Source: Paracyclopina nana
Lineage: Eukaryota > Arthropoda > Copepoda > Cyclopoida > Cyclopettidae
Assembly: GCA_019096065.1 (NCBI GenBank)
Contig: JAGUCH010000002.1
Span: 14,396,501-14,460,500, forward strand
DNA length: 64,000 nucleotides
Direction: 5' to 3'
The notes beneath the pieces are model-generated. The model was not told the DNA's origin and did not search any database. It saw only the letters and a program-made list of their open reading frames with translations. The translations under genes and the position numbers were made by a program. The stretch's first letter is position 1, and each line of letters starts with the position of its first letter. Shown here piece by piece: positions 19,106 through 58,722 of the stretch.

Positions 19106-19159
19106 CCGCGGGAAGGTTCCTCAATTTTGTGCCAAAGTTACCACCTAAAAATAGTATTT

Positions 19160-19337: not shown

Positions 19338-20115
19338 CAAATTTTATGCACTTAAACCGAATTTCCAAGTGAGTAATGAACTTGCCGAAATCAAGCGCAA
19401 TTTCATAAGGGGCCGTGAACTTAAGGCATGCCGATTCCTAGGTGGGAATTGCTCAGAGATCTGAAACTTTGCATAGCTATAGAAATAATAGACAAAAGTA
19501 TCATAACAATGATACGCCATCAAGTGACATTACTGGAGAAATACTTGGGATTTCAGGGTTCACGGTTTACACAACCGTACTACTTTTTTGAGGCTGAATT
19601 TAAAAAGAAGAATCAAAATAATCTCCAGACTTCTCAATTGGAGTGCCAAAAAACTTGCTCCATTGATCTTAATGATTTCTAACAGTTTAGAAAACTTGTA
19701 GCCAACACGAAACTAAAAAAATTGCTAATGCACACAAAAATTGCCCTAAGATCGGTCCTTTTTTATCCTTTTCTTGTTAGCCGATGTAAAAGATCCAAAA
19801 TTCACTGCACGCTCACATCAAGGGATCTTGTAGCACTGAATTTTGAATCGACTACTCCCTAATCCCAAATGTTTCAACTTTCCCTCCGCTAGGCGTGCTA
19901 CTTGCGTTTGTTATTGTTATGTTACTGTTGTGAATAGAATAATCCAAAGATGGCTCTGCTATCTAGAAACATTGCTGCCCTCTATAGCCTGAACAAGAAC
20001 TACAAACCATAACAAAGTAGCTGAGCGACTGCCTAACAGTAAGCAGCGGCAGCTGTAGTGAAAAAGTGAAAAATCATTGAAAAAATGGATTGAAGAGGCC
20101 AAGAAAACTACAGCG

Positions 20116-20574
20116 CACAGTGGGTTTATTTGCCGATTTCACGCGCACGGAAAAAAGTCGCGAAATCAACGTAGCACCTTTTCTTATTGGCTGTAAGCTA
20201 AAAATATTGCATCCTGGCACCCGGGAGAGCAAGTAAGAGCAGCCAATTCTGGTGGATTATCAATTTATGCTATTAGCTTGACTTCCCTGACTTGGTCACT
20301 CAATTGGAGTCGTTTGGAATCAAAAGTTATGGGCGATTCAATTTTTTCTCAAATTGTGCAAAGTTGCTGTTCTACTGAATTCGCCAAAATCAACTTTTGC
20401 CCAAAAATTATGCTTCCTTCACCAAATTTGAATCTCTCAATTAACATTAATTAGTGCTCTTTAGATAGCCTAGAAGTCATACAAATTAGAAACTGAAAAT
20501 GGGTGCTAAAATCGGAAATCTGCAATTTGACGTAATTTCTCGTGCGCGTAAAATCGGCTTTTTGATCCAATGTG
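20116..20574. mobile_element. Transib/RAG-like MITE (CACAGTG ends, 5-bp TSD CAGCG) inside satellite unit
   Basis: The element begins CACAGTGGG and ends CCAATGTG, with inverted ends that continue through GCCGATTT and the CGCGCAC block. The pentamer CAGCG flanks it on both sides (20111-20115 and 20575-20579). The same element recurs at 21826-22283, 23538-23995 and 25250-25708, because the host unit was amplified. A diverged independent insertion is at 36372-36828. CACWRTG termini plus a 5-bp duplication are typical of Transib/ProtoRAG transposons. Confidence 0.75.
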
Positions 20575-20630
20575 CAGCGGTCTCGGAAACGTCTGGGATC
20601 CCTGCTTATGACAAGTACTTGACCAAGTTG

Positions 20631-20785
20631 GTAAAAAGTAACCCTAGGGTTCTCATTTACCATTTACTAAGTAAAAAGTAACCCTAGGGTTCGCATTTAC
20701 CATTTACTAAGTAAAAAGTAACCCTAGGGTTCGCATTTACCATTTACTAAGTAAAAAGTAACCCTAGGGTTGTCATTTACTTCAT
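20631..20785. repeat. 40-bp minisatellite with AACCCTAGGGTT core
   Basis: About 3.5 copies of a 40-bp unit, with four copies of the palindromic core AACCCTAGGGTT. The core resembles two telomere-type hexamers head to head. The same block is present in the other three satellite units near 22340, 24050 and 25765. Confidence 0.85.
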
Positions 20786-26884: not shown

Positions 26885-29800
26885 TTACACTTTACCAGAG
26901 TACTTGTGGTAGCTTTTATAATTGGTGTACACGTGCTTGAACATCTCTTGCTGTCCTGGTGGCATAACCGCAGAGAGGAAATCAGACGAGTGAGAGTCAC
27001 AAATGTCGAGGAGTTTGTGCACACCAAACATGACATTGGACCTTGCACTGGGATACATGGTCACTTTTTGCATTGACTCCATGACATCACTAATTAGGTA
27101 CGGAGCGACACGTGCAAACTCCTCCTTTAGCTTCTTGATGTGATCACACAGCCGGTCAAAATTGTGAGCCAGCTGTGTGACAGCCTTGATTTCCCCAGCC
27201 TCAAGGCCTCTTTTTTGGTCAGAGGCTGCAGCCAAGCCACGTAGCAAATTCCGGATGGCGGTTATCATCAATGGGATCCTCGAGATTACCAGCGAGGATG
27301 GCCTTTTATGGAAGGCTGTGGAAATCACTTTGTAAACGGACATCCACAACTGCTCGAAAAGTTGCGGATGAGTCTGCAAAAGCTCCTGGTCCAACTTGAG
27401 AGCGACACACGTGGACACACAAAAGGCCTCACTTTCTTTGTACAGAATTGGCTTTTCTGCAGCCAGCAAACTTGCTTGAAGCTCCAAAGTGGGCAAGTAG
27501 TAGTGCTTCAAATTAGCCTCTGTCACGCTAACTAAGGTCATCAGTGGAAGAATCTTTTCTATTGCTTCTCTCCGTAGACCCAAGGCATCTCCTTGCAGCT
27601 TGGCTAGCACCAAGACCTTCCAATTGGAGTAGATGTCCAGGTTCGGAAAGTTGCGTACTGTTGCTTCAACGAGGCTGTTAAGCAGTTTTTGAAACACCTC
27701 AATGTCGTTTTCACTTGAGGTCTCAAATAAAAGTTGGAGCACTGCAAGTCCATCCTCTTTTTCTATGGGCTCGATGCAGAATTTGGAATTGGCAAAGTCG
27801 CCCAAAAATGATCCCAAATCAGGCATTTTCTTCTCGGCCAAAGTGGAAAAGTTGGCGAGTAGAGTTGAGAGAAACTTGACGCACACACTTTCCTCTCTGA
27901 GAGAAGCCAAGCAGTAGGGAATGTATTTGGACAAGTTGCACTTTTTCAAAGCCTTTTTACCACTCTCGACGCCCTCCTTGGCAGAGACTTCAATCACAGG
28001 TGTCAAGGCCCTGATGATGAGCAGAGGATCAAGGATGTTGTCTTCCTTTTTCAGCCCTTTGAGAAAAGCTTTACTGAGGGCCTTGAAAAGACTGGCACAT
28101 TTGGCCTTTTTGTCTTCGTTGATGGACTTCAAGGTCAGCAAAGGATGGAGGCTTTCCATCAGGGTGACAGAGACATGAACTTTGGCCTCATTAGTCAACG
28201 TTTCCAGAGGAGACACAAAAGTGGCTTGCTTCTCAATAATTTCATCCAAAGGCTTTTGGTACATGACGCCAATCTTGGTGAGGTTGTGCAAAATGTGGCC
28301 CACATCTCCTGGCACCTCAGATAAAGCATCAAGCACCTCTGTCACAGAGACATGCTTCAAAAGGCTTGATGGTCTGTAGACGCCTTGGCAAGTTCTGGCC
28401 AAAAGTAGAGCAAATTTGGCATGCGATTTGATCAAGGCCAAAAGGAGCAGTGACACAACTATTTCCAAGTGACCTTCCATGTGCTCCAGTGGCAAGCATT
28501 GCAAAAGGTCAAAGGGGTCATTTTCTGCAGTGAGTGTGATGTCCGTCTTTTTCAACACTAATGAAGCTGCAGATGAGATGTCATTTTTTCTCAGACTCGC
28601 TAACACCTTGGCTTTTTTGTTCTGCTTCATCAATTGGTCAAGGATGATATTGACCAAGGCTGCTTGTAACGTTGGGCTCTCCTCAAAAATAGCCTTATCT
28701 TGAAGTGCACTCGAGTTGATTAAAATTTCCTCAAGGGCTTTCCATAGTTCAGATTCTTCTAGCTCAGGTAGCACAGCCTTCCAAGTGGCTGGATCATCCT
28801 TGATGTCACTCCAGGTCAATTGAGTTTGCTTGGCCTTCTTGCTCAAGACTTCTTCATCGATGCTTTCAAGCTTTCGCTTTTGCAAGTTTGTCAAGCCCAT
28901 GTATGGCAAATCAAGGCCACGTGTGGCTTTTAGCATCACACACACCTCATCCAAAGCCCTGGCAACTTTAGGAAAGTTGTGGGCCATTTCCTGACAGCTT
29001 TTGATGATAGCCAACACTTTTGTCATGGTAGGATCAGGAACCGATTGGTCAACCAGGCAAGCATTCAATAGGAAGACTGGCATCAGTGCTTCAATGGTTG
29101 AGTGCGCGTGAATACAATTGACAGTCATATGGTACTCAAAAGTCTTCCAAAGCTCCAAAAGTTGGCCAGACGGCAGCAAAACAATCTTTTCAGCAAAGCA
29201 GCTCACAATGGCAGAATTCCACTCAAGGCCTTTGTCCATTTTGCTCACATAGATTAGCACCCTTGCAACCAATTTTGGTAGTTGCCTCAACTTGTGAAAC
29301 AAGGAAATAGTTTGGCTCATCAGGTCAGTCCTGACTGAATCATCTTTAATAGACATAATTGCAACTGCCAATGATCCAACCAGGGGCTCAATGACCATCG
29401 GAGTATAGTGAGCCAAGGCAACTGCTATTTTTGACACGGTGTCCAAGTCATCTTTGCAATTGGTCAATAGATGCTTGAGCAGATGCTGGATAAATTTCAG
29501 CAGAGTCGAGGCATCATCTGAATCTACCAATTGAGTGGTGAGATCCATTTTGAACTCTACCAAAGAGCTGGACATGTTCTGCAAACACTCCAGCCTTTCC
29601 TTGACAGACATCTTAAACTTGGGCAGTACTACAGTGGAGGCCAGAGGCGACAACTTGGTGACCTCTTCAGATGTGGGGAAAAACTGCAGAATGTCACACC
29701 CAGTGATGAACAACAAAGCTTTGCACTGATCCACAACACACCTGGATTTGAGGCAAGATGCAAAGATTGCCCCCAAAGCTGTCAACTGATGATCGTGACT

Positions 29801-30581
29801 CATGGAGGACAACTTCATGAACAGCTTTTCTAATATCTCTCCAGATTTGGGCTTGCTTTCCACACTTGGCTGGTTAATGATGGATTTGAGAAAAGCGCTC
29901 CAAATGCCTACTAGCTCTTTGGCAAAGAGCCCATGGCTTACAAGTCTCTGCACTTCACACTTGTACCCATCGAGAGTGAGCAATTTAGGCAGGAGAACTT
30001 CAAAAAAGTTGGCTCCCATTGCTGATGGTTGATGCTGGATGGCTTGGCCGTACAGCCAAAGAACATCAGAGACAATGGCATCGTTGTCAAGGCACTTCCC
30101 AATGAAAACATTGAGCTGCTCATGTTGCTTGAGCAAAACTGAACGAATGTGCCGGAAATTCCTTATCAAAGACGACAAGCATTGCTCCATCAGAGCCCGA
30201 TCTTGACACAAATTGAAGTGGTCAACGGCGGTGTTGAAAAAGTCCCAGAAATTGTCATGACAAGCAGCCAAGAAGCTCTGTTCAAACTTGGGTGATTTGG
30301 AAAGGGAGAGTAAAAGTGTCCACAATTCTCCGTCTTTGTTGTCATCCAAATTGGCAGAGAACTTTTTGAGCAAAGTTGTCGCAATCCAGCTCAGAATCAT
30401 TTCCTCTTTTTGCGCAACTCGAACAGAATTGCTCAGAAATGTGTTTTTGGCAAGGTTGCATTTCTCGCTCAGCTTCAAGTTGGACCTGAGCTTCTCTGTG
30501 ATTGCTAAAAATTGACTCAAACATTAGTTGTTACAAAGGAAAATAAACTGCACAAGAAATCGTACCTTTGCGCAGCTCCAT
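26885..30581 (-). CDS. URB2/NPA2-like nucleolar 60S ribosome-biogenesis protein (2 exons)
   Basis: URB2 acts in the nucleolus in early processing of 27S pre-rRNA for the large ribosomal subunit. A 16-nt first coding exon (30581-30566, encoding MELRK) is spliced over a 61-nt intron to 30504-26885, giving 1211 residues. The protein is almost wholly alpha-helical and HEAT-like with many Leu/Lys-rich helices. The recognisable part is the C-terminal Urb2 domain (about 1010-1211) ending in QEMFKHVYTNYKSYHKYSGKV-type sequence, with an LLDICDSHSSDFL segment. The identification rests on this C-terminus and overall length; the rest is very divergent. It lies 113 bp downstream of MRG15 on the same strand. 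Confidence 0.75.
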
Positions 30582-37088: not shown

Positions 37089-40000
37089 GGCCCATACTAA
37101 ATACTGCCCACGATCGCGCACTATCGCGCACTATCGCGCACAATCGCGCACAATCGCGCACAATCGCGCACAAACGCGCAACTACTAAAAACTGCCCATG
37201 GATCAAAACGCGCACAAACGCGCACAAACGCGCACAATCTTAATACTGCCCAGAGATGATAATTAAGAGATAAAAAAAGAATAAGAGTAGAAATACAAAA
37301 ATGAGTCATTTACTCACTTCTGAGACTTGACTCAGTATTCTTGACCCAATGCTGATTTTTGCTGAGAATTTGAGGCACCTGAGTCAACCCCAACCTGTAG
37401 ATTAAGCAAGGATCTACAAAATCCGTTTTTTGGCTGCCCTGAAACGTCTACAGTAGTACTTTTTTTCAGCTAAGAGCAGTCTCAGCATTCTTGACCCTTT
37501 GCTGAGCTCTGCTGAAAATTTGAGGCAGCTGAGTCAATTTTAAGGGCCGATTTCAGGAGTACCAACAAGCTGCTAACTCTTGCCCATGTACTAATAGTTG
37601 ACCAGCATAAAGTAGAAATACAAAAATGAGTCATTTACTCACTTCTGAGACCTGACTCAGTATTCTTGACCCAATGCTGATTTTTGCTCAGAATTTGAGG
37701 CACCTGAGTCAACCCCAACCTGTAGATTAAGCAAGGATCTACAAAATCCGTTTTTTGGCTGCCCTGAAACGTCTACAGTAGTACTTTTTTTCAGCTAAGA
37801 GCAGTCTCAGCATTCTTGACCCTTTGCTGAGCTCTGCTGAAAATTTGAGGCAGCTGAGTCAATTTTAAGGGCCGATTTCAGGAGTACCAACAAGCTGCTA
37901 ACTCCTGCACATGTACTAATAGTTGACCAGCATAAAATAGAAATACAAAAATGAGTCATTTACTCACTTCTGAGACCTGACTCAGTATTCTTGACCCAAT
38001 GCTGATTTTTGCTGAGAATTTGAGGCACCTGAGTCAACCCCAACCTGTAGATTAAGCAAGGATCTACAAAATCCGTTTTTTGGCTGCCCTGAAACGTCCA
38101 CAGTAGTACTTTTTTTCAGCTAAGTGCAGTCTCAGCATTCTTGACCCTTTGCTGAGCTCTGCTGAAAATTTGAGGCAGCTGAGTCAATTTTAAGGGCCGA
38201 TTTCTGGAGTACCAACAAGCTGCTAACTCTTGCCCATGTACTAATAGTTGACCAGCATAAAGTAGAAATACAAAAATGAGTCATTTACTCACTTCTGAGA
38301 CCTGACTCAGTATTCTTGACCCAATGCTGATTTTTGCTGAGAATTTGAGGCACCTGAGTCAACCCCAACCTGTAGATTAAGCAAGGATCTACAAAATCCG
38401 TTTTTTGGCTGCCCTGAAACGTCCACAGTAGTACTTTTTTTCAGCTAAGTGCAGTCTCAGCATTCTTGACCCTTTGCTGAGCTCTGCTGAAAATTTGAGG
38501 CAGCTGAGTCAATTTTAAGGGCCGACTTCAAGAGTACCAACAAGCTGCTAACTTCTGCCCATGTACTAATAGTTGACCAGCATAAAGTAGAAATACAAAA
38601 TTAGTCATTTACTCACTTCTGAGACCTGACTCAGCATTCTTGACCCAATGCTGAGTTTTGCTGAGAATTTGAGGTACCTGAGTCAACCCCAACCTGTAGA
38701 TTAAGCAAGGATCTACAAAATCCGTTTTCTGGCTGCCCTGAAACGTCCACAGTAGTACTTTTTTTCAGCTAAGTGCAGTCTCAGCATTCTTGACCCTTTG
38801 CTGAGCTCTGCTGATAATTTGAGGCAGCTGAGTCAATTTTAAGGGCCGATTTTAGGAGTATCAACAAATTGCTAAGAAAAGCCCATGTACTGAAAGTTGA
38901 CCAGCATAAAATGGAAATACACCTGACTCAGCATTCTTGACCCATTGCTGAGTTTTGCTGAGAATTTGAGGTACCTGAGTCAACCCCAACCTGTAGATTA
39001 AGCAAGGATCTACAAAATCCGTTTTTTGGCTTCCCTGAAACGTCCACAGTAGTACTTTTTTTCAGCTATGAGCAGTCTCAGCATTCTTGACCCTTTGCTG
39101 AGCTCTGCTGAAAATTTGAGGCAGCTGAGTCAATTTTAAGGGCCGATTTCTGGAGTACCAACAAGCTGCTAACTCCTGCCCATGTACTAATAGTTAACCA
39201 GCATAAAGTAGAAATACAAAAATGAGTCATTTACTCACTTCTGAGACCTGACTCAGCATTCTTGACCCATTGCTGAGTTTTGCTGAGAATTTGAGGTACC
39301 TGAGTCAACCCCAACCTGTAGATTAAGCAAGGATCTACAAAATCCGTTTTTTGGCTGCCCTGAAACGTCCACAGTAGTACTTTTTTTCAGCTAAGAGCAG
39401 TCTCAGCATTCTTGACCCAATGCTGAGTTTTGCTGAGAATTTGAGGTACCTGAGTCAACCCCAACCTGTAGATTAAGCAAGGATCTACAAAATCCGTTTT
39501 TTGGCTGCCCTGAAACGTCCACAGTAGTACTTTTTTTCAGCTAAGAGCAGTCTCAGCATTCTTGACCCTTTGCTGAGCTCTGCTGATAATTTGAGGCAGC
39601 TGAGTCAATTTTAAGGGCCGATTTCAGGAGTACCAACAAGCTGCTAACTTCTGCCCATGTACTAATAGTTGGCCAGCATAAAGTAGAAATACAAAAATGA
39701 GTCATTTACTCACTTCTGAGACTTGACTCAGCATTTTTGTATTTTTGTATTTCTATTTTATGCCTGTAAACTTTCAGTACATGGGCTTTACTTAGCAATT
39801 GTTGATACTCCTAAAATCGGCCCTTAAAATTGACTCAGCTGCTTCAAATTTTCAGCAGAGCTCAGCAAAGGGTCAAGAATGCTGAGACTGCACTTAGCTG
39901 AAAAAAAGTACTACTGTGGACGTTTCAGGGCAGCCAAAAAACGGATTTTGTAGATCCTTGCTTAATCTACAGGCTGGGGTTGACTCAGGTACTTCAAATT

Positions 40001-40988
40001 CTCAGCAAAACTCAGCATTGGGTCAAGAATGCTGAGTCAGGTCTCAGAAGTGAGTAACTGACTCATTTTTGTATTTCCATTTTATGCCTGTCAACTTTCA
40101 GTACATGGGCAGAAGTTAGCAGCTTGTTGGTATTCCTAAAATCGGCCCTTAAAATTGACTCAGGTACCTAAAATTTTCAGCAGAGCTCAGCAAAGGGTCA
40201 AGAATGCTGAGACTGCACTTAGCTGAAAAAAAGTACTACTGTGGACGTTTCAGGGCAGCCAAAAAACGGATTTTGTAGATCTTTGCCTAATCTACAGGTT
40301 GGGGTTGACTCAGGTACCTCAAATTCTCAGCAAAACTCAGCATTGGGTCAAGAATGCTGAGTCAAGTCTCAGAAGTGAGTAAATGACTCATTTTTGTATT
40401 TCTACTTTATGCTGGTCACCTATTAGTACATGGGCTTTACTTAGCAATTTGTTGGTACTCCTGAAATCGGCCCTTAAAATTGACTCAGCTGCCTCAAATT
40501 TTCAGCAGAGCTCAGCAAAGGGTGAAGAATGCTGAGACTGCACTTAGCTGAAAAAAAGTACTACTGTGGACGTTTCAGGGCAGCCAAAAAACGGATTTTG
40601 TAGATCCTTGCTTAATCTACAGGTTGGGGTTGACTCAGGTACCTCAAATTCTCAGCAAAACTCAGCATTGGGTCAAGAATGCTGAGTCAGGTCTCAGAAG
40701 TGAGTAACTGACTCATTTTTGTATTTCCATTTTATGCCTGTCAACTTTCAGTACATGGGCTTTACTTGGCAATTTGTTGATGCTCCTAAAATCGCAGTAT
40801 TTAATAGTCATTTTGTTGATCCTTTTGAATATACAGGTTGGGGTTGACTCAGGCGCCCTTAACTCAAAAATATGAGTTTCTTATCATTTTTGGGCAGTAT
40901 TTAGTATTTGCGCGTTTGGGTGCGATAGTGCGCGTTCGTGCACGTTCGTGCGCGTTTGCGCGCGATTGTGGGCAGTATTTAGTATATA
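37089..40988. mobile_element. 3.9-kb foldback/Mutator-like element, 11-bp TSD CGTGGCGGGAC
   Basis: The ends are inverted repeats (ATACTAAATACTGCCCAC followed by subterminal copies of the 10-mer AATCGCGCAC). An exact 11-bp direct repeat CGTGGCGGGAC flanks the element (37078-37088 and 40989-40999). The interior is direct 325-bp units from about 37303 (then 37628, 37953, 38278, 38603 and further irregular ones) that switch to inverted orientation near 39735 and continue reversed to about 40870. No protein is encoded. The long duplication and the subterminal repeats suit Mutator-like or foldback elements. Confidence 0.8.
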
Positions 40989-47840: not shown

Positions 47841-49304
47841 TTAGTGAAGCTCCTCTTTAGCAAGACGCTTAGATCTTCGGGTTCTGGAAGCTATGGGCCC
47901 AAAGTCGTCTTCTTGGAGCACTTGCGCAGGCACTGTGACTAACTCGTCTTCAGCAATGTCTCCAAGGACATCATCCTCGATAACTTCTTCTACAAGAGCA
48001 TCAGAGTCTTTGGATTTCACTTTTCGCTCACGTGGCAAGTACGGTGCACTATCCTCCTCCTCTTGACAAGGTAAAGGAATGAGGTGTATCACTGGCCTTT
48101 CCAGATACTTGAACACTGTACTTGTGAGTCCTCTTTTGTCAACTTGGGTGACAGCATATTTTACTATTACGCGTCTGACCCTGCCGTCTTGGTTAACATA
48201 GACCTTGTCGACTACACATAGTTTCCAGGAGCTGCGCCTTGCATGTTTTCGTGGGTCTACCAGTATAACCGGATCACCAGTTTTCAAGTCCTTGACAAAG
48301 TTATGCCACTTTGGCATCTTTTGTACTCTGACTAGGTAGCCCTGTATCCAGTAATTCCACATGTCTTGCATGCACTTTTCCAAGACTGCGTAGTGCTTTG
48401 GCAGTGAGCTAATATCTTTAGGGTCAATACTTGGCAGCACTTCACCTCCTGGTCCCCTGGTGAGAAAGTGGAATGGTGTGATGACATGCTCACCCATGAC
48501 TGCTACTGGTCTACCATTAACCATTGCTTCTGCTCTTTTTGTGAAAGTTGCGAATTGGTCATAAGTCAGAAGAGTTTCTCCAACTATTCGATAGAGGGCT
48601 TTCTTCCAGTTTTTTACAGCTGCTTCAGCCATTCCGTTGCAGTTAGGTGCATATGGAGGTGACAAGGACCAGGATTGTACTCCTATAAGAGATGCGTCTT
48701 GCCTAAGCTTGAGCCAGTCGATGCTCTCCAAGTTGGCCATGAGCTCCTCGTGGAGTGGATTGTGCAGGATTTCAATGCGTGCTCTCTTCAAGTTGGAGCC
48801 CTGATCACTCCTGATCTCTTGAGGGACTCCAGTCCTCGAAACCATGCGATCAAGTGCATATCTCAAGGCGGCAGCACTCAGCTTTGGAGTAACCTCAGTA
48901 TGTATGGCTCTTGTGTCTCTACAAATGGCAATGAGCACATAGACTTTTGTTGAGCTGCGACCGTATTGGACTAAGAAAGGGCCTGCGAAGTCAATTGCAA
49001 TACGCCTGAAGGGGAACATTTCTGTGGCAGGCAAAAGGAAGTTGTGGGGCAGAGGAGCCATAATTTGCTGCATAGTTTTGCGTCTTGCTACTATGCAAAA
49101 TAAGCATTCATTTGTGATTTTCTTGAATAGCTTAGATGCTCCGACCACATAGTATCTTTTCTGGAGCTCAGCAAGCATAGTGACAACTCCATATCCATGC
49201 CCTAACTCGCTGTGAACATGCATGCACACCCTGAGGGCCCAGGCCTTAGGCACAATGAGCCTTGCTTTGCCGATTGTTGTTAGTAAATCACGGTGAAACC
49301 GAAG
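47841..49304 (-). CDS. BEL/Pao-type retrotransposon integrase, detached from the rest of pol
   Basis: An open frame of about 487 codons from the preceding stop (an ATG-independent N-terminus, so 5'-truncated or spliced). It shows an HHCC-type zinc-binding region ending NECLFC, and an integrase core with IDFAGPF (first D), RSDQGSN (second D) and NGMAEAAVKNWKK (E), then a C-terminal BEL-style domain with GDPVILVDP and VKYAV. It ends in an acidic then basic tail (RTRRSKRLAKEELH). Protease and reverse transcriptase are absent and no LTRs are seen. The long intact frame is notable for a fragment; it could be a recent truncation or a domesticated integrase. Confidence 0.75.
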   Translation of the reverse strand, partial: LRFHRDLLTTIGKARLIVPKAWALRVCMHVHSELGHGYGVVTMLAELQKRYYVVGASKLFKKITNECLFCIVARRKTMQQIMAPLPHNFLLPATEMFPFRRIAIDFAGPFLVQYGRSSTKVYVLIAICRDTRAIHTEVTPKLSAAALRYALDRMVSRTGVPQEIRSDQGSNLKRARIEILHNPLHEELMANLESIDWLKLRQDASLIGVQSWSLSPPYAPNCNGMAEAAVKNWKKALYRIVGETLLTYDQFATFTKRAEAMVNGRPVAVMGEHVITPFHFLTRGPGGEVLPSIDPKDISSLPKHYAVLEKCMQDMWNYWIQGYLVRVQKMPKWHNFVKDLKTGDPVILVDPRKHARRSSWKLCVVDKVYVNQDGRVRRVIVKYAVTQVDKRGLTSTVFKYLERPVIHLIPLPCQEEEDSAPYLPRERKVKSKDSDALVEEVIEDDVLGDIAEDELVTVPAQVLQEDDFGPIASRTRRSKRLAKEELH

Positions 49305-49560: not shown

Positions 49561-50440
49561 ATGCCCTTTGACATTCAATTTAAGGTAGATAAATACTTTT
49601 AAATATTTTCAATGAAGTGATACTAAAAAAATTATTTAGCATCCAGCCACATATTTGGTGTGTGGTCCAGCAGGTAAATACAAGGTGAATCTTTTTTTTT
49701 TCATTTATGCTGACCGAAAGTCAATTTAGGCTCTGGAAAAACAACATTTATACAAAATCTTCTATTGGAGGCAGACAAACTCATCTATCCCAATCCTCCC
49801 GTCAAACTGCTTTTCTATCAAGAGTATCAGCCCATTTACCAAACACTTTTAAAAAATGGTTTGATTACCAGACTTATTGAAGGTATTCCACCCTATGAAG
49901 AAATACGAGAAATTTTAGCCAGCTATAAAAAAGAAGGCAGTTTTGCCATCTTCGATGATTCGCTGCAAAGTTTTGGTGAACTACATCAACTTTATACTGT
50001 TGGTATGTTTTTGTCTCGACCAACATTCAACATGCCAACAAAAATTATTTCCTTTAGGCTCAAGACACTTGAATGCGAGCACGTTGGTGGCATCACAAGT
50101 TTTATTTGGTGAAGGGCCCCATTTACGCACCATTAGTCTGAATGCAACATACTTGATTTTGATGAAATCAGTGCGTTCACAGCGACAAATTTCAACCTTG
50201 AGCTCGCAAATTGCACCTTATCAATCATCTTTTATTGTCAACAGTTATCTGGCTGCAACAAGAACGCCTTATTCCTACCTAATTCTTGACATGCACGCCT
50301 CACAAAGCGATATAGTTCGCCTGCGAAGCAAGATTTTCTCGCACGAAGGTAGAGAAACTCTGCTTTTGTGTCCCATCATCATAACTTTTGTTTTTATTCA
50401 TGTTGCAGGCATCCCAGTATGTTTTGTGAAAAACAGTTGA
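49561..50440 (+). CDS. FtsK/A32-type DNA-packaging ATPase (5 exons)
   Basis: This ATPase pumps the viral genome into capsids. Exons 49561-49584, 49640-49673, 49730-50002, 50058-50348 and 50409-50440 all have GT-AG borders and agree in phase, giving 217 residues, close to the usual Polinton size. Walker A (GPAGSGKT, residues 17-24) is assembled across intron 2. Walker B is FAIFDDS in exon 3. Then come QVLFGEGPHLRTISLNATYLI-type family blocks and SYLILDMHASQ, followed by RLRSKIFSHEG at the end. No frame break. The spliced reading restores every conserved block in order, which is why introns rather than frameshifts are called here. Confidence 0.88.
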
Positions 50441-50504: not shown

Positions 50505-50882
50505 ATGAGCAACCGTTCATCCTCCAAGGTGACTGAAAAAAAGTGCAAACTTTTATTTCTCAACACACTTAAAAAGTTAACCAATGAAGAGAGAAAAGAT
50601 CTGCTTTCAAGGCTAAATCCACAGTCGATCAATGACTTGGGGACTTTTATTTTTAACGCCATTCATTCCGATTTGGGTCTTTCAAAGGCCACGAAAGAAA
50701 AGCTACGGAAGCAGCTGAGCGAATCTTCAACTGACTTAAGGTTCATTGCAGACCGTTCCAAGCCAGTTGAATTGAGACGAAGACGTGCTAAGAAGCAAAG
50801 TGGCCAAGGCATTGGACTGATTTTATCAGCCCTTGTGCCAGCAATCACTAGTTTAATTGCAAATAGAGTTAGCAAACAATAA
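50505..50882 (+). CDS. Small pX-like virion/core protein
   Basis: 125 residues. The N-terminal half is helical and basic. The end is a basic patch (LRRRRAKK) followed by a glycine turn and a hydrophobic segment (GQGIGLILSALVPAITSLIA). That layout matches small core/capsid-associated proteins of Polintons and adintoviruses (adenovirus pX-like), usually placed next to the ATPase as here. It starts 64 nt after the ATPase stop and ends 7 nt before the next start codon. The function is inferred from layout, not from a catalytic motif. Confidence 0.6.
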   Translation: MSNRSSSKVTEKKCKLLFLNTLKKLTNEERKDLLSRLNPQSINDLGTFIFNAIHSDLGLSKATKEKLRKQLSESSTDLRFIADRSKPVELRRRRAKKQSGQGIGLILSALVPAITSLIANRVSKQ

Positions 50883-50889
50883 ATACTCA

Positions 50890-51576
50890 ATGCCTAGACC
50901 AAAGTCATTTAAAGGCAGTTTCTCCACATTATATCTTGTACCTACTAAGTTGTACGACAAACTTTTGCATTGCATCGATACTGCCGATAACCAAGACCTG
51001 TCACGCATGAACCAGGCCCCTGCAGATCGTTCTGATCAAGCCATGCCAGTTGAACCGCCCAGATCACCTCCACACCCAACAAGGGCTGAGCAAGTAGTAG
51101 GCAACGAGGAACAAGATCGATCCCCATTGATTCCTCTCGAAGAAGACAGCATCACCAACGAGGCATTAGAACCTGCTCCTTCTGCTACTACGACTACTAC
51201 AACTGCTGATGTTGGCACAAATTATGATGATGAAGACGGGCTTGTGGCTTGCCCGATTTGCGATGGGTTGTTTAGTGGGCCCCAAAGTGTAGAGAGCCAT
51301 ATGGAAGCCTATCACAGCAGACCCAACAATGCTACATTTGGTACGCAAACAGACAATCCGCAGCCTCCACCACCACCACCACCGCCAAGAGCAACTCCAC
51401 GCCCGCGACCACCTTCGCCTCCACCAGTGAAAACGCGAGGAGCAAAGCGAAAGTTTGTACCTCCACCTACAGATGCAAATGAGTACACACCACGACCGAG
51501 GAAAGCAAAACAAGGCCTGATCCAGTACGGGAAAGGCTGTGCAAAAACAAAAACCTTTTGCAAATGGAAATTTTAA
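50890..51576 (+). CDS. C2H2 zinc-finger, proline-rich element protein
   Basis: 228 residues from the ATG at 50890, only 7 nt after the pX-like stop, so the two probably share an mRNA. The N-terminal block (GSFSTLYLVPTKLYDKLL) resembles a recurrent N-terminus of Polinton accessory proteins. There is one C2H2 finger (CPICDGLF...HMEAYH), a poly-Thr and poly-Pro stretch, and a basic C-terminus (KTRGAKRK). AATAAA at about 51613 follows, and a TTTATT at 51592 serves the opposing gene. DNA binding is likely, but its role is unknown. Confidence 0.65.
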   Translation: MPRPKSFKGSFSTLYLVPTKLYDKLLHCIDTADNQDLSRMNQAPADRSDQAMPVEPPRSPPHPTRAEQVVGNEEQDRSPLIPLEEDSITNEALEPAPSATTTTTTADVGTNYDDEDGLVACPICDGLFSGPQSVESHMEAYHSRPNNATFGTQTDNPQPPPPPPPPRATPRPRPPSPPPVKTRGAKRKFVPPPTDANEYTPRPRKAKQGLIQYGKGCAKTKTFCKWKF

Positions 51577-51593
51577 GTAGAACAATCATGAGT

Positions 51594-53285
51594 TTATTGT
51601 ACATGCTGAGTAAATAAAAGATTGAGCATTACAAAGTCAGTTTCATTATTAAAAGCAACTTTTTGTCCACTGTGTGTGCGTAAATCAAAATGGAGTGTGG
51701 AAGCGGCTGCTATATTCACTTTGTGATATTCCAGCTTTTCAAATTCAATATTTGAATTGCTTCCCTCTGCCACAGATTTCACAGGCAATACTTTAAGCAA
51801 TTTTAGCTCATTGTTTGATACAATTGTGTCAGTAATAAAATCGGCATATAGGAAGACAGAATTGGGTAGATAATGATTAAATTTTGGCAAAAATGGAAAA
51901 CTGAATGGCTTTCTAGCAAGTCTTTCGATGGATATCACAGGATATTTGTCATCGCTTGGTGTACCACCTAAAAAAACAAACAGCTTTTTTTGTAGCACAA
52001 TTCTCATATTCAGTTCTGAAAGAAAGCAAAGACCTCCAGTGTGAATGTCAATACTTGCTTTGGTGCGTAATCCACTAAATTTATCATTAAAAAACTGTAC
52101 TATATCACGAACATGATTTACATTTTTTGGCATAATAAGCGTAAAAGAAGTGATTTCAGCCGCATCTTCTTCGGCCCAAAATTTGAAATACAGGCTTCTT
52201 TCGCGATTGGAGAAGGGCAATTCAAATCGTGTCGGCAAATGGCAGGAGACCAATGCTACAAACCAATCCGATCCAAAAAATGTGATGGGCACTGCCAAGC
52301 TTGATGTGAAGCTACTAGGCGTATTATTTTTGAAATTTGCAGTTGGCCTTGATGTACATCGAATAAAAAAGTTTGACATGGTGGCAAGCGTTGTTTTTCG
52401 AACACTAAATTTGACAATAGTTGCTCTACCAGGTTGAAGTTTAAGTTGTTGATAATTTTCATCAAGGAGTTGTAGTTTCAAGTTATTTCTAGGCTTGGGT
52501 TCACTCAGCTGAAAATAGATTGGATTTTTCAGCTCAAAGTAGAATCCATTGAAAGTTGGCTGTTGCTGTTGTATATCAAAAGTTGCCACATAGTTGCAGG
52601 TGCGATCATCAATTTGGTGCTTTTTTACAAATGAAGCCGACAAAAAGATGTGCTTTGGTACTTGCGGCCTCAACTGCACACTCTTTTTGCATGCAAAATA
52701 AATTCCTTCATCATTTGCTTCGTAGACATGGTATAGCAGCCCGTGTTGAATAATGCTCTGCTTTGGCTGAAATGTTCCATCCGATAGAATATTTGCTAGC
52801 TCTTCGTAAATGCTCATAAAAATTGGCCTTTCTGGCTCGTCGGCACGTTTAAACTTTTGCATCACTTTTTCACTAGCAAAGCACCCAAAATATGTCACTA
52901 AGGATGAAGGATCTGTGTAGGCTATGCTTGGCAGCGGTTGGTTACCTTGAATAGCTGCAGTATGAATGCTCAAATTAAGGGTATCAGCTAGTTTTCGCAA
53001 TGTGAAGCTTTTATGCGGGAGAAAAATCCTTGAAATGATCCCTCTATCCTCATATGTGCCAGCTACAGGTTCAGTGCTGAGCAAAATAACTGGATGCTCA
53101 TGATTTGAGGCCATGATGCCTTCGGTCAGAAATTGGGCATCAATAAAGCATTCTTCAACTGCCACTTCATACACGTGGTTGGATGTTGTAAATGAAGCAC
53201 TAAGAGCGTTGGTAAAATTGCTTAATGTGTTGTTAGGGTATATATCACTCGAACCATTTGAAGCCAAAAAAAAATTACTCTTCAT
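51594..53285 (-). CDS. Two-module virion protein (penton/fibre-like)
   Basis: 563 residues, intact. The protein begins with a motif known from Polinton-associated proteins, FFLASNGSSDIYPNNT...F, followed by YEVAVEECFI. A second copy of the module starts near residue 307 (FFIRCTSRPTANFKNNTPSSF, then WFVALVSCHLP). It therefore looks like an internal duplication of a beta-rich unit. The family is typically an outer capsid component; penton or fibre is inference. The start ATG overlaps the integrase stop by one base (TAATG), which suits termination-reinitiation. AATAAA for this gene is at about 51592. Confidence 0.65.
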   Translation of the reverse strand: MKSNFFLASNGSSDIYPNNTLSNFTNALSASFTTSNHVYEVAVEECFIDAQFLTEGIMASNHEHPVILLSTEPVAGTYEDRGIISRIFLPHKSFTLRKLADTLNLSIHTAAIQGNQPLPSIAYTDPSSLVTYFGCFASEKVMQKFKRADEPERPIFMSIYEELANILSDGTFQPKQSIIQHGLLYHVYEANDEGIYFACKKSVQLRPQVPKHIFLSASFVKKHQIDDRTCNYVATFDIQQQQPTFNGFYFELKNPIYFQLSEPKPRNNLKLQLLDENYQQLKLQPGRATIVKFSVRKTTLATMSNFFIRCTSRPTANFKNNTPSSFTSSLAVPITFFGSDWFVALVSCHLPTRFELPFSNRERSLYFKFWAEEDAAEITSFTLIMPKNVNHVRDIVQFFNDKFSGLRTKASIDIHTGGLCFLSELNMRIVLQKKLFVFLGGTPSDDKYPVISIERLARKPFSFPFLPKFNHYLPNSVFLYADFITDTIVSNNELKLLKVLPVKSVAEGSNSNIEFEKLEYHKVNIAAASTLHFDLRTHSGQKVAFNNETDFVMLNLLFTQHVQ

Positions 53286-54436
53286 TATTTTTTATTGACG
53301 TAGGCTGCAAGAGGCTGAAATTGGGGAATATTTCCTTGAGCAAGCACTTGTTCAACTAGTCGAGTTGGCAGCCAAGCTTGATATGAAGCTGGTAAATTAT
53401 GATATGTGATGAGACTTTTCGCTCCCTTCTTTCTTAGCACTTCTCCAATGCTAAACTTCATGCTTGGATCCAGGGCCACCAATTGATGTTTTGAAAATGA
53501 GCCCTGTACAATTTCACCAGTTTTTAAAACTTTCAAATCATATGTTGGTATTTTGTGCACCCTCCTAATGCGGTAAATAACATAAGGCTCATTGTTGGTC
53601 TGCAAATCATAGGCGCGATTGAACAATGTTTCCAGCTTGGTCACTCTAACAATTTGTCCCAATTGAAAAGTTGGCTTTTCTCGCTTCACGCAAGCATAGT
53701 TTTTTTCAAAAATATGCTTCAATTTCATATGATTCTCTGGAAGTTCAGCTTCTTGTGGGCTCATTTGTATCATGCGATGTTGCCTTGTACGATATGTTCT
53801 AACAATTAGGTCAAGGTGGTCAATGTAACGCTCGGTCCGGTTTTCATCCATAAAAGCCAGCATCAGTCTTTTCAACGAAGCTTGAGCTCGTTCAATTTTG
53901 GGACAATGTCCCAACACATACGAGTGTCTCAATTGAATGGACTTTTCATTCAAGAGAGCCAGCATAGGCTTCCCTGTCCATTCTTTACCCAAGTCACTAC
54001 AGATTGCATCCACCTTGGGCGGAGTAATTTCACGATCCAACATTTGTCTAAAAACCTTTGTCACTTCATGACAAGTTTTTGTCTTGAGCACTCCTACCCA
54101 CAAGTAGCGGGTAAAAGAATCAATCGCGCATAATAGGAATCGCACTTGATCGTTGTGTTCAGCATATCGACTCACATCTAACAAATCAACTTCAACCAAT
54201 TGTCGCTTTTTATATGAAAAAACCACATTGGTGGCTCCTGCGCGAGGATGATTGAGCCTATAGGCTGTGTACACATCTTGCTGTGACAAAAACTGTCGGA
54301 TTTGATGATAGGTGAGTGCACCATTGAAGTATTTGTAAATTGTCTGTGGACCAGCAAACGCAATGGGACTTCCAATCGATGTATACAGCTGTTTTAAAGC
54401 TTTTTTAGCCTCAACGGAGCTCCAGTTAGATGCCAT
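53285..54436 (-). CDS. Polinton-type (retroviral-like) integrase
   Basis: 383 residues, intact. It inserts the element's DNA into the host chromosome. The N-terminal segment ends with HQIRQFLSQQDVYTAYR, typical of Polinton c-integrases. The catalytic core has VDLLDVSRY (first D), ICSDLGKEW (second D) and KIERAQASLKRLM (E), all present. A YIDHLDLIVRTYR segment precedes a C-terminal chromo/SH3-like region (RVTKLETLFNRAYDLQ, YVIYRIRRV). It starts about 23 nt beyond the probable extended end of the pVI-like gene, and its stop overlaps the next start. Confidence 0.88.
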   Translation of the reverse strand: MASNWSSVEAKKALKQLYTSIGSPIAFAGPQTIYKYFNGALTYHQIRQFLSQQDVYTAYRLNHPRAGATNVVFSYKKRQLVEVDLLDVSRYAEHNDQVRFLLCAIDSFTRYLWVGVLKTKTCHEVTKVFRQMLDREITPPKVDAICSDLGKEWTGKPMLALLNEKSIQLRHSYVLGHCPKIERAQASLKRLMLAFMDENRTERYIDHLDLIVRTYRTRQHRMIQMSPQEAELPENHMKLKHIFEKNYACVKREKPTFQLGQIVRVTKLETLFNRAYDLQTNNEPYVIYRIRRVHKIPTYDLKVLKTGEIVQGSFSKHQLVALDPSMKFSIGEVLRKKGAKSLITYHNLPASYQAWLPTRLVEQVLAQGNIPQFQPLAAYVNKK

Positions 54437-54532: not shown

Positions 54533-54877
54533 TCAGAGATTTCTCAAGCTTGATGCAATCTCCTCTTTTGCCACATCAAGTTTTGACTTTAAGCCTTCGG
54601 TTGGATCTTGTCCCTGGACCAAATCGGCGAGAGCATCGGTTGTTGCACTTAAAGCAGTTGCCTTCAAATTTTTGCCCAGCTCGGATTTGCTTAATTGTTT
54701 CACACCTGAAAGTGCAGCCTTACCAGCTTTAGCTGCAAATGGCAAGATCTTTGAGAAAAGGGATGAGAAAATTGCGCCAAGCCCGGATCCACTTTGAATA
54801 TGAGAACCTTGATGAAATTTAAGCAGTCCGCCTACACCAGGCATCAGTTCACTTTCAAAGTTGCCTCCAATAGGCAT
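54533..54877 (-). CDS. pVI-like amphipathic virion protein
   Basis: 114 residues, with a glycine-rich start (MPIGGNFESELMPGVGGLL) and then SGSGLGAIFSSLFSKILPFAAKAGKAAL, like the small pVI-type membrane-active/capsid-cement proteins beside the integrase in Polintons. The sequence downstream in another frame (to the stop at 54460) is strongly basic, KRK- and PRKR-bearing, as expected for this family's C-terminus. A one-base frame change at about 54530 may therefore have shortened it. Its start overlaps the end of the TFIIB-like frame. Function is inferred. Confidence 0.55.
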   Translation of the reverse strand: MPIGGNFESELMPGVGGLLKFHQGSHIQSGSGLGAIFSSLFSKILPFAAKAGKAALSGVKQLSKSELGKNLKATALSATTDALADLVQGQDPTEGLKSKLDVAKEEIASSLRNL

Positions 54878-55677
54878 GATGGTGCTTTATTGTCTGTATA
54901 GAAGCTCACCATGGCCCAGCAACAGCTTAGTTCATGCCATAGCGTTTCAAGAATCGCACCAAAGTGTGCTTTTAATGCCCGAAACGCTGCAAATATCTTT
55001 AACATGTACATCAATTTTTGCAAATTACAAAATATTTTTATGAAACTAGCAGCAATGGTGGCAGGATTACAATTGCAGTAATGATTAAGGCCGGAGGTAT
55101 GAATGAGTTTCGAATTTGACAAGCTTGAGCTTGAGAGAGGTTGAGTTTCCCACAGAATCGGTCCACTAATTGATCTGGCTTAGTATTTTTTGTTGTGCAA
55201 AGTATTTGATGTGAGCAGCAGATATGAGCGATGATCTGAGATCACTGTCGAGGCTTGTCAATTCGCGAAATGTGAGCGGACACTGCTCTTCTTGCAAAAT
55301 CTCATACAAGGCTGCGAATAAAATCGCCTTTTTCTCAGCACAAATTTTGGCATCTTTTCCTTTCGGGCTATATGAAGGTACAAGTCATGTGCTTGCTTTG
55401 CAAACCGAGGAGGTAAATTGGCATTTGAGCACACATTCACTATAATGTCAAATAAATGATCCCATTTGCCCACCTTGCAAGCCGAAGATGGCTCATTATT
55501 TTTGTCGAGTTTATCTTGGATCCCTTCAATTGAATCTCGATCGCAGGGGTTTGTCACACTTCCCAAGGGTGCAATAAATGACACTCGTTCTGCCAATATG
55601 AGTCCACACAACAGGCATATAACATCGCCCGTTTGATGGTCGCCTGCTTGACTCAAGTGTTGGCAGTCATCTGACAT
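54844..55677 (-). CDS. TFIIB-like transcription factor, frame-broken
   Basis: TFIIB bridges TBP and RNA polymerase II. From the ATG at 55677 the frame shows a zinc-ribbon with GDVICLLCGLILAERV, matching the TFIIB ribbon (the first pair is C-x-H rather than C-x2-H). A cyclin-type repeat follows (LPPRFAKQAHDLYLHIA). The second half of that repeat (AILFAALYEILQEEQCPLTFREL) and a second repeat (VDRFCGKLNLSQAQACQI; NPATIAASFIKIF) continue in other frames. Changes of frame fall at about 55329-55334, 55176-55178 and 55107-55110, each beside a short homopolymer. It starts inside the last 25 nt of the TBP-like gene. Decay or assembly error cannot be told apart here. Confidence 0.7.
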
Positions 55678-56290
55678 AATGCTGTGTAAATTGCAAGGGA
55701 GGCTTCGTGCAACTGATGATAATATTTTGCTCCACAAACAAGCATTGACCCATTCTCATAGATTAAGGTAGAAGCGCCAAAACCACGTACAATTAAAGCA
55801 GAGTAGACTTCGGGTTGGAATCGTGCGTGTTCAATTTTCTCCTTGTACAAATCCAGCACTGCTTGTCTCAACCAGAGCAAATTAATTTTACCCTGCGTGG
55901 ATGAACATTGTCTCATATGGTGGTGCAAAATGGAACTTTTGCAAGTAATGTTGTCAATTCGAAAGAAAATGTCGTCCTTGTTACACGTGAAAATGGCTTC
56001 AATTTTCTCCAAACACTTGTTGATGTCAGTTATAGATTTCATCCCAGTGCAGTTGACATGAAAGCTGCTGTGACCTTTGCGACGTTGAAAACGGTGATTC
56101 GCAAACTTGATGGATAAAAATATAGCACCACAAAGTTGTGAAAACGTCTTGTTTTGATGTGAAACTTTGCTTGGCACTGCTGTATTAAATTGTCCAAATC
56201 CACTTGTCCACATATTTTTACTGAACCTTTGATATTACAAATATCCAGGAACTGGCCACAAAAACACGTGCGAACTGAACGAATGAACAT
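55653..56290 (-). CDS. TBP-like (TATA-binding protein) factor, one frame break
   Basis: TBP recognises core promoters. Two TBP-type repeats are visible. Repeat 1: NIKGSVKICGQVDLDNLIQQ, RRFHNFVVLYF, then HVNCTGMKSITDIN after a frame change at about 56073-56079. Repeat 2: FQPEVYSALIVRG, TLIYENGSMLVCGAKYYHQL and a helical end. The VxCTGxKS and VCGAK signatures match TBP positions in both halves. Start ATG 56290 is 55 bp from the capsid start on the other strand. The stop lies inside the TFIIB-like start. I know of no TBP in standard Polinton gene sets; large nucleocytoplasmic DNA viruses do carry one. Confidence 0.72.
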
Positions 56291-56345
56291 TGTGGAATGA
56301 TGACTTAAGAGAGTGCATCGGGCGAGTATTCTTTAAGCAACGAGC
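56291..56345. promoter_or_regulatory. 55-bp divergent promoter between TBP-like and capsid genes
   Basis: The start codons of two oppositely directed transcription units are only 55 bp apart, so both promoters must overlap or lie in coding sequence. No TATA box is visible in it. Confidence 0.45.
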
Positions 56346-57826
56346 ATGGCAGGCTATAATACGGATCACCCCGGATTGGGCGAAATTGTGACATCAATCT
56401 ACGAGCAAGGCCAATCAAGGTATAATTTGTTTACTCAACCTAACGAGATCAAGTGTTGCTGGGAGGCGAAGAATTGTTCTATCAGCCTTTTAATGCTTTG
56501 TCACAACATGGAAATGTTGTGTTCAACGTGCCAGGGCTTAGCTATGATTTCTTTGATCTACAACAAACCAGACTATTTGGCAAGCTGAAAATACTTGAAC
56601 TGAAAGATGATGGAAGCGAAGGTAAAGAATTCATGATGCTTAAAAAAACTAATTTGCTTCATTGCAACAATGATGCTTTATAGGTCCTCCTCAAGATCAA
56701 ACAGATTTCAGCTTTGTCAATTTGCTGCCTCAAGCCTTGTTTAGCCGGGTCGCTGTGAGCTTTAATGGAGTGGAATTGACAAATTTGCCTGTAGGTGGCT
56801 ATCCATACAAAGCCTTTTTTGAAAGCCTTTTCAGCTACGGACCTGTTGCAAAGGAATGCGGCATGAAGTCTATGCTTTGGAAGCCAGACTTGCCAGCCAA
56901 TTGTGAAACCACAGAAAAAACGGCTGAAGCATCTGGCTACAATGATCGCAGAAAGGAGTTTTTAGACAGTAATGGTGAAATTCACTTTAGCATGCCACTT
57001 TTTGTGGACGTTCTTAACATGTCAAGGATGCTGCTATCAGAAGTCAACATCAGGATTGAGCTGACTCGTTCGCCTGATGCATTTTGCTTCATTGCTAAAG
57101 ATGCACTTAAGGACAAGTTGAAAATTGAACTTGTCAGCCTCACACTCAAAATGCGATCACACAAAGTCGTGAGTCAGCTTTTAGATGCTCAGACAGCAGC
57201 CCTACTAAGAACGCCAGCTCTGTATCCATACATTCAAGGCAATGTATCTTTTCATGCAATCCCTGCTAATTTGACTCAAACCTATATTCCAAGCCTTCAT
57301 AATGGTATTTTGCCACACCTGTGTTTGCTCGCAATTGTCCCCAATTCGGCTATATCTGGTAAAATGAGCGTCAACTCATTTGTCTTTAAAAATTGGAACA
57401 TTGCGAGCCTTCAGTTCAAAGTGAATGGTACACCTTTTCCCTCCACGAGATATGAGCCAAAATTTAGGGAAAATTCTTATGATCGCGAATACATCTCATT
57501 GCTGTCTGATTTGAGTGTTACAAACAGTCCAACAATTGGAATTACTAAAGAGGAGTTCAAGCATCTCTACACAATTTTCAGCCTTGATCGAAGTTTTTGC
57601 GGCTGTGCTGGGTACCATTCACATTTGGGGCTGGATGCCAAAGGTAAGTTGTCCTTGCAAATGCTCGTTTCAACTTAAACATTTTTTTTCTAAAATAATA
57701 GGTAATATTGGTGTGGAAATTACTTTTGAAGAACCACCATCTGAGCCACTCCAAATTGTATTTTACACGTCCACCCATCGAATGCTGACCATCAATGGTG
57801 ATCGCGAAGTAGCCCTTGATTTTTAA
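56346..57826 (+). CDS. F54H12.2-type major capsid-like protein (3 exons, one frame break)
   Basis: Exons 56346-56621, 56684-57643 and 57702-57826 with GT-AG introns of 62 and 58 nt. The protein follows the F54H12.2-like family common in animal Polintons: an LFTQPNE start block, NVPGLSYDFFDLQQTRL, ALFSRVAVSFNGVEL, YPYKAFFESLFSYGP, HFSMPLFVDVLNMSRML, LPHLCLLAIVPNSAISG, and a C-terminal block after intron 2. The family is taken to be the jelly-roll capsid shell. Inside exon 1 the frame changes near 56450, beside a GT/AAG stretch. I found no GT-AG pair of the right phase to explain it. The rest is open. Confidence 0.8.
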
Positions 57827-57841
57827 TTGAAAAGAAGCAGC

Positions 57842-58510
57842 ATGAAAAAAGCAGGCTTGAGCAGCACCTATCTTCACAGCCTGGGCTCTCGTTTAAGTTG
57901 CAACTTTTTGGGCGTCTTTGCTTGCGATGAACTCGAGTCATTGGTAACTAAGATGCTTGGCAGCCACCAAGAAGGATGTAGCTGTATTGTCAATTTGAGC
58001 CCAAGCAAATTTGCAGGAACTCATTTTGTCTCCCTGTCAATACTTCGAGCTAAAGCATCAGCTCAATCCAACATATTGTATATATTTGATGCTTTAGCCC
58101 TCGGCTTTTTTGACCCAAATATTGAGCACTTTGTTCGCGCATGTCAAAACATCTTTCAGCAGCAAGGAAGCCATTTTAAAGTGGTGAGGTTCCATAAAAA
58201 AATTCAAAGTAATTTCTCTGATTTTTGTGGCTATTATGCACTTGCTTTTATTTTGAGCCAAGACCCATGCTTGAGATGTCACTCAAGACATTTTTGCGCT
58301 TTGTTTAAGACTGCCAAAGGCAATAATAGCGAACAACAATTATTGAAGAATGATGAGCGTGTTGTAAAATACATTTGTGATTACATATACAACCAAAGAT
58401 GTAAATACATTTTATGCAAGCCTTGTTCGTTTTGCACTCGAGGACACTCCTCCATCAGAGTCCTGTGTGAACTTGCGTTTTTTTGCCTGCTGAAGGCTTC
58501 TCTGCCATAG
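57842..58510 (+). CDS. Adenain-like maturation cysteine protease
   Basis: A C5-type protease that cleaves capsid precursors during assembly. From the ATG at 57842 (15 nt after the capsid stop) about 222 residues. Catalytic histidine in FAGTHFVSLSI, acidic partner in YIFDALAL, and the Gln/Cys pair in IQSNFSDFCGYYALAFI. A later NDERVVKYICDYIYNQ block is the normal C-terminal helix of the family. The last about 35 residues are cysteine-rich and overlap an opposite-strand frame, so the true stop may be earlier. Confidence 0.8.
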   Translation: MKKAGLSSTYLHSLGSRLSCNFLGVFACDELESLVTKMLGSHQEGCSCIVNLSPSKFAGTHFVSLSILRAKASAQSNILYIFDALALGFFDPNIEHFVRACQNIFQQQGSHFKVVRFHKKIQSNFSDFCGYYALAFILSQDPCLRCHSRHFCALFKTAKGNNSEQQLLKNDERVVKYICDYIYNQRCKYILCKPCSFCTRGHSSIRVLCELAFFCLLKASLP

Positions 58511-58722
58511 TTCAAATTTTTTTTCCTCACGACATTGAAAGCACTCACCATCGAGTTGGTCAATGAGCACACTTCCAAATGCAGCAGAGTGGATAGCACA
58601 GTCAAAGTAGTGTCGTTTTACACACAAGCTCGTCAAGGCTGATTTTCGAGTTTCCACAGTTTCAAGCTTGGTAAGTCCACTCCTACGTATTTGTGCAAAT
58701 GATGCATAAAGAGTCTGAGCAT
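58412..58722 (-). CDS. Small hypothetical element protein, frame-broken
   Basis: From an ATG at 58722 the frame reads LRLFMHHLHKYVGVDL. After a change near 58670 it continues as TRKSALTSLCVKRHYFDCAIHS and then LDGECFQCREEKK, ending in a basic KKRKF tail. The clean codon structure on both sides of the break suggests a real gene of about 100 residues. I do not recognise it. Its end overlaps the protease's last 33 codons tail to tail. Confidence 0.35.

Follow-up and report, generated by a model that had tools for sequence, protein, structure and literature searches.

Does a TBP-like gene that is directly followed by a TFIIB-like gene belong to a Polinton-type element, and what might such a pair do there? 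Both questions are raised by the window, the whole 64,000-nucleotide stretch of DNA analysed here (C2:14396501-14460500), which is part of a 92 Mb assembly of 10 contigs.

The window contains a Polinton-type element

Open reading frames (ORFs), Pfam matches and tblastn place one copy of a Polinton-type element at approximately 49.7 to 58.7 kb of the window, and homology with its sister copies stops at 58710. Its genes are arranged in the order ATPase remnant, finger protein, 563-aa protein, integrase, small protein, TFIIB-like gene and TBP-like gene, with a capsid-like gene and a protease oriented divergently, and a polymerase fragment. The families named below are those of the related copies found in the same genome.

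49732..50347, plus strand: packaging-ATPase remnant in two pieces (tblastn with the family C ATPase, 44-46% identity)
50857..51576, plus strand: C2H2-finger-like element protein (tblastn; weak Pfam match)
51594..53285, minus strand: 563-aa element protein common to families A, B and C (ORF, tblastn)
53285..54436, minus strand: integrase, rve domain (PF00665, E 1e-4, under the cut-off)
54533..54886, minus strand: small family A protein between the TFIIB-like gene and the integrase, with no convincing Pfam family and pVI-like by eye only (ORF, Pfam, tblastn)
54930..55330, minus strand: TFIIB-like gene, remaining core in other frames (tblastn with the intact family A TFIIB; translations)
55258..55677, minus strand: TFIIB-like gene, zinc ribbon and start of the cyclin-type core, with a 25-nt overlap with the TBP-like gene (ORF, Pfam)
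55653..56090, minus strand: TBP-like gene, end of the first repeat and second repeat, VCGAK (PF00352, E 7.8e-8; tblastn)
56039..56290, minus strand: TBP-like gene, first repeat, in a frame that differs from that of the second (tblastn with the intact family A TBP; 83-aa ORF)
56340..57678, plus strand: capsid-like gene with one frame change (ORF, tblastn; double-jelly-roll assignment weak)
57827..58510, plus strand: adenovirus-type cysteine protease (tblastn; family A relative PF00770, E 2.6e-5, over the cut-off)
58415..58711, minus strand: fragment of a type B DNA polymerase (tblastn; family C relative PF03175, E 6.9e-17)

The Polinton/Maverick gene set is represented by an integrase, whose relatives match PF00665 over the cut-off in family B (E 7.8e-9) and at the cut-off in family D, a viral type B polymerase (PF03175), an adenain-type protease (PF00770), and a packaging ATPase that falls under the cut-off (Pox_A32, E 7.5e-4). 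The capsid-like protein matched Pfam in family D only, under the cut-off (PF21738, E 0.014), and neither a PDB search with the capsid-like profile nor one with part of the polymerase returned a match. Long inverted repeats were absent between the pieces flanking the copy on contig C8, which may stop short of the element ends.

Elsewhere in the window, an ORF of 1211 aa with an Urb2/Npa2 domain (26885-30520) is likely a host gene, and two large tandem repeats (19150-25998 and 37278-40794) have units of approximately 1.7 kb and 325 bp. An integrase with a DUF5641 domain (47841-49253, minus strand) belongs to what we take to be, probably, a BEL/Pao-type retroelement. Five of the eight contig ends read carry TTAGG-type repeats, two carry CCTGG-type repeats and one ends in N; together with a host TFIIB of animal type, the TTAGG repeats point to an arthropod.

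The pair is recognizable in the window, in broken frames

The initial annotation described two TBP-type repeats with CTGMKS and VCGAK signatures, followed by a zinc ribbon (GDVICLLCGLILAERV) and two cyclin-type repeats, inside a Polinton-like element. The signatures, the ribbon and the gene order were all recovered on the minus strand, and the reported 25-nt overlap is exact, as the ATG of the TFIIB-like gene starts at 55677 and the stop codon of the TBP-like gene ends at 55653. Both TBP repeats are present, but in the window copy they lie in different frames, the 83-aa frame at 56039-56290 and the frame ending at 55653. Similarly, the ribbon and the core are both there, but no one frame contains the whole core; a single open frame with the ribbon and two core repeats occurs only in relatives elsewhere in the genome, such as L021. 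When the window translations were compared with Pfam, the TBP match was over the cut-off (PF00352, E 7.8e-8), and the match of the ribbon to PF08271 (E 0.0057) was under it, ranked below Herpes_UL31 (E 0.0037) and only suggestive. An AlphaFold model of a 129-aa TBP piece of the window had a pLDDT of 57, with no TBP-like structure among the 50 matches listed.

The identity of the two proteins is better judged from profiles of all five families, which match a solved TBP (E 2.4e-13) and human TFIIB (E 4.3e-23). These matches, together with the recurrence of the pair beside 14 of 15 capsid-like genes, exclude chance and uphold the Polinton-type setting. A misassembled host locus was ruled out, since those 14 places are distributed over contigs C1, C2, C3, C7, C8 and C9, and the host genes for TBP and TFIIB lie elsewhere and bear introns.

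The pair accompanies capsid-like genes in five families

The 15 capsid-like places were obtained by merging 19 matches of the family B capsid-like protein, to which the proteins of two other families added none. They fall into five diverged families (A, five places including the window; B, three; C, three; C', one; D, three) whose capsid-like proteins are approximately 26-61% identical. The sole place that is not adjoined by a TBP-TFIIB pair, C3:8996295, holds a decayed fragment of family B, for which approximately 1.5 kb of flank was read. Both frames of the pair are open at 10 of the 14 places (A, two; B, one; C, three; C', one; D, three); the three TFIIB frames of family D were traced for this count no further than the end of the stretch. 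The two genes overlap by 22 nt in family A, 52 in C, 40 in C' and 97 in D, and are 10 nt apart in family B. The order integrase-TFIIB-TBP with a divergent capsid-like gene is found in families A (with one small gene between), B, C and D, and in C' the region downstream of the pair contains an integrase match.

Within family A, pairwise comparison of the window copy, L023 and L024 over 7.8 kb shows 12-37 substitutions and 13-14 indel events. Given that 6/13, 8/14 and 6/13 of these pairwise indels fall in runs of at least four equal bases, the breakage of frames in these three copies may in part be sequencing noise. Across 9.66 kb, the differences between L021 and L022 amount to 16 substitutions and two 3-base indels. 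All five copies of family A have the frame change in the capsid-like gene at nearly the same position (window 56340-57678; L021:3291-4470; L023 and L024 among them), and it may be a shared break, an intron or a frameshift.

Several further loci and genes were observed. Three further family B TFIIB matches with no listed capsid match occur at C3:9025154, C6:6421991 and C9:907355, and more distant integrase matches were listed as well. The region C4:6117000-6122500 (L065), with an ATPase-bearing remnant at C4:6120442, contains ORFs for an ATPase and a finger protein that belong to another element or remnant, and its 5.5 kb had no match to the capsid-like, TBP or TFIIB proteins of families A, B and C. 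Family C elements encode two IAP-like proteins with BIR and RING domains (L025:148-780 and 1001-1543), and a family D element has a RING-finger ORF (L060:1661-2032). Scans of IMG/VR with the capsid-like, integrase, TFIIB and TBP alignments, a limited test with one or two peptide patterns each, gave no confirmed relative.

A deletion form retains the integrase

A family C deletion form at C7:4.63 Mb (L063 and L064; C7:4629500-4641300, the copy read in part) is devoid of the ATPase, the capsid-like gene, TBP and most of TFIIB, and retains the two IAP genes, the integrase, a 543-aa protein and the type B polymerase. The form terminates in a 1.4-kb palindrome, which lies at the centre of the locus. 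This palindrome and the facing integrase copies approximately 17.5 kb apart suggest a head-to-head dimer, and pairs of integrase matches with the same spacing at C9:2262693/2279110 and C3:1719006/1735961 suggest that the deletion form also exists at C9:2.26 Mb and C3:1.72 Mb.

These loci bear on whether the pair could instead assist replication, packaging or integration as an accessory that bends DNA, for instance by tethering the neighbouring integrase to promoters. Cellular TFIIIB tethers Ty3 integration to promoters, and the conserved placement of the integrase beside the pair in families A, B, C and D would suit such a role. However, the form on contig C7 keeps its integrase and polymerase without TBP or most of TFIIB, as is suggested at the two other places, so integration appears to need no pair in cis, and we consider an accessory role improbable. 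The deletion form fits a pair that is supplied in trans or is unneeded for integration.

The TBP-like protein is predicted to bind and bend promoter DNA

The family A TBP matched a solved TBP by itself (E 4.2e-6), and PF00352 was over the cut-off in families A, B, C and C' as well as in the window, with family D under it (E 0.019). In tblastn, family D is linked to the other families through its TBP, which matches that of C' (3.9e-17), and its TFIIB, which matches that of C (4.8e-13). The frameshifted family B TBP frame of L020 had no TBP match in Pfam. In the five-family profile, positions 11-195 align end to end with positions 9-185 of the archaeal TBP 2z8u, and most other matches aligned only to the second viral repeat. 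Profile scores were 53.6 bits for the archaeal TBP, 48.7 for yeast, 47.8 for the host TBP and 11.3 for a host TRF2-like protein (best reported E 2.4e-13); these scores do not single out one source for the viral TBP.

To read the protein, we considered the positions taken to intercalate into DNA, the central asparagines and the acidic residues. The second-repeat intercalating positions were located by alignment with the host TBP, and those of the first repeat by motif, as the host alignment is out of register there; all four are aromatic in all five families. One central asparagine is present in every family and the other in four (Ser in B), and two residues past the first of them a lysine replaces the host valine in 5/5 families. 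The viral TBP is predicted to bind and bend promoter DNA. A glutamate two residues before the stirrup aromatic is kept in four families (Gln in B), and the neighbouring acidic position is not conserved. These are the two acidic positions of TBP that are reported to matter for TFIIB binding (PMC12529657).

The TFIIB-like protein is of the animal RNA polymerase II type

The family A protein alone matched human TFIIB (E 1.8e-7), and the five-family profile aligns with residues 104-286 of the human core, comprising the two cyclin-type repeats. Individual Pfam matches were weaker: PF00382 was over the cut-off in C' only (E 4.3e-10) and just under it in C, PF08271 reached 1e-4 in A and B, the TFIIB matches of A, B and C were under the cut-offs, and the family D TFIIB had no Pfam match. 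Four zinc ligands are kept in all five families in the pattern C-x(1-2)-C/H ... C-x2-C. In family D, two zinc ribbons lie in tandem (L043:3-893 and L045:6-893).

The TFIIB profile scored 87.9 bits against the host TFIIB and 85.4 against the human protein, with 43.9 for archaeal and 25 for yeast TFIIB, 23.6 for the host Brf and 21.4 for a Brf-containing entry. As the host and human proteins score far above Brf, the sequence identifies the viral protein as of the animal Pol II type, and a Brf identity was rejected. A core this distant from canonical TFIIB might be expected if the pair acted like Brf and served RNA polymerase III or I, but the gap between 85-88 bits and the two Brf scores makes such a role very improbable.

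The stretch from ribbon to core measures 57 aa in A, 47 in B, 17 in C, 20 in C' and 41 in D, compared with 87 in the host TFIIB, where it contains the B-reader and linker. A B-reader and B-linker could not be assigned, the canonical reader being unrecognisable, and by sequence the protein is TFIIB-like rather than a full TFIIB. Since this stretch is shortened, the initiation steps that need the B-reader and linker may be absent. This is what would be expected if the protein bound as TFIIB does without supporting initiation, such that the pair traps the polymerase or promoters of the host in dead-end complexes, and host transcription is repressed rather than that of the element started. We nevertheless regard such a decoy as unlikely: two co-conserved adjacent factors exceed what it needs, and the lysine that replaces valine in every viral TBP suggests a DNA preference unlike that of the host.

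Both genes of the pair are constrained

Comparison of L043 and L045 in family D gave omega values of 0.175 for TBP, 0.160 for TFIIB and 0.051 for the capsid-like gene, and the family D TBP and TFIIB are under purifying selection. For the family A TBP, pN was 0.155 and pS 0.741; between C and C', pN was 0.337 and 0.371, with pS saturated. Both genes are constrained, yet evolve faster than the capsid-like gene, and this constraint rejects a pure relic. In trees with long branches and a small set of outgroups, the viral TFIIBs (96/96) and the viral TBPs (100/100) each form one group apart from the host genes. This would fit a single capture, which probably preceded the divergence of the five families, with the pair kept since.

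That the two genes are dispensable passengers, captured with little present function, has in our view a small probability. Frames are broken in four of the 14 pairs, the window included, and the deletion form exists without the pair. Against this, omega is well below 1, the pair has been kept across families with capsid-like proteins as diverged as those described above, and some of the breaks may be sequencing noise.

A proposed private initiation pair for host RNA polymerase II

With the anatomy of the pair and the selection on it in hand, we infer, with a probability of roughly 0.6, that the element uses a TBP-TFIIB pair of its own to direct host RNA polymerase II to element promoters. The initial annotation had suggested such recruitment for late promoters in particular. 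Pfam scans of the element proteins scanned contained no match to an RNA polymerase, so a host polymerase would have to transcribe the elements. In the mechanism we propose, the element encodes a matched pair whose TBP would bind and bend element promoter DNA; the viral TFIIB would dock on this TBP and, as the element seems to be without a polymerase of its own, its zinc ribbon would draw in host RNA polymerase II. Through this recruitment, the element genes would be released from the control of host TBP. The overlap of the two genes in four of five families counts in favour of this reading.

Several observations count against this reading. Upstream sequences, read by eye and without statistics, had no motif common to the families, with a single TATATAAAG before the family B capsid-like gene and a single TTATAAAAG before the C' TBP gene. 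The ribbon-to-core stretch is short, only one of the two acidic TBP positions is kept, family D is weak in Pfam, and a deletion form exists.

We would put at even odds the broader proposal that an old Polinton-type lineage in animal-like genomes has host RNA polymerase II start transcription through a two-protein module that the lineage itself encodes. The promoter code of this module would differ from that of the host (the lysine in the TBP saddle and a divergent helix-turn-helix in TFIIB), its TFIIB would function with a minimal B-reader or none, and, in the literature searched, no small integrating element would have been described with such a pair before. If true, a small integrating element would have gained control over the choice of promoters and still rely on the polymerase of its host, and the Polinton gene set would gain a new functional module. 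The pair would also be a natural test of a minimal TFIIB for Pol II initiation, and it might represent a step towards the TBP/TFIIB pairs found in larger DNA viruses.

Comparison with known systems

Vertebrate Mavericks/Polintons share with the present element the integrase, type B polymerase, ATPase, protease and capsid gene, but the eight core genes given in the passages available do not include TBP or TFIIB, and a word search of that source for TATA and transcription factor returned nothing (PMC8097293). Neither factor is named in the available passages of PMC11071296, PMC11071308, PMC10675110 and PMC8097293. In the literature searched, no report of TBP or TFIIB in a Polinton was among the matches listed, and no paper was found for Polinton, TATA-binding protein and TFIIB together; in passages from a subset of the papers that also name Polinton, TFIIB refers to genes of giant or algal viruses.

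Among viruses, vaccinia encodes TBP/TFIIB pairs in VITF-3 and VETF/Rap94, but these serve a viral RNA polymerase and have very low sequence conservation (PMC12917281), whereas the present pair is still recognisable by profiles. Megavirus encodes TBP and TFIIB, as here, but also eight viral RNA polymerase subunits (PMC11464507). KSHV ORF24, the late-gene TBP mimic of beta- and gamma-herpesviruses, is a viral TBP-like protein that works with host RNA polymerase II and needs four phenylalanines, as cellular TBP does; it is without the acidic TFIIB-binding residues, is predicted not to bind TFIIB and acts with five other viral factors (PMC12529657). In the present element, by contrast, TFIIB is encoded alongside TBP.

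The phycodnavirus CpV-BQ1 encodes a TBP and two TFIIBs with no recognizable RNA polymerase, and redirection of host RNA polymerase II has been proposed for it (PMC12085832). The idea of such redirection by a viral TBP and TFIIB is therefore already known, and the present element is not the first of viral type to combine the two factors with the lack of a polymerase. CpV-BQ1 is a large algal virus with many other transcription genes, and the passages available do not present its TBP and TFIIB genes as a tandem pair (PMC12085832). As far as our searches show, what is new here is such a pair in a Polinton-type element: small, integrating and resident in an animal-like genome, with its two genes adjacent and mostly overlapping.
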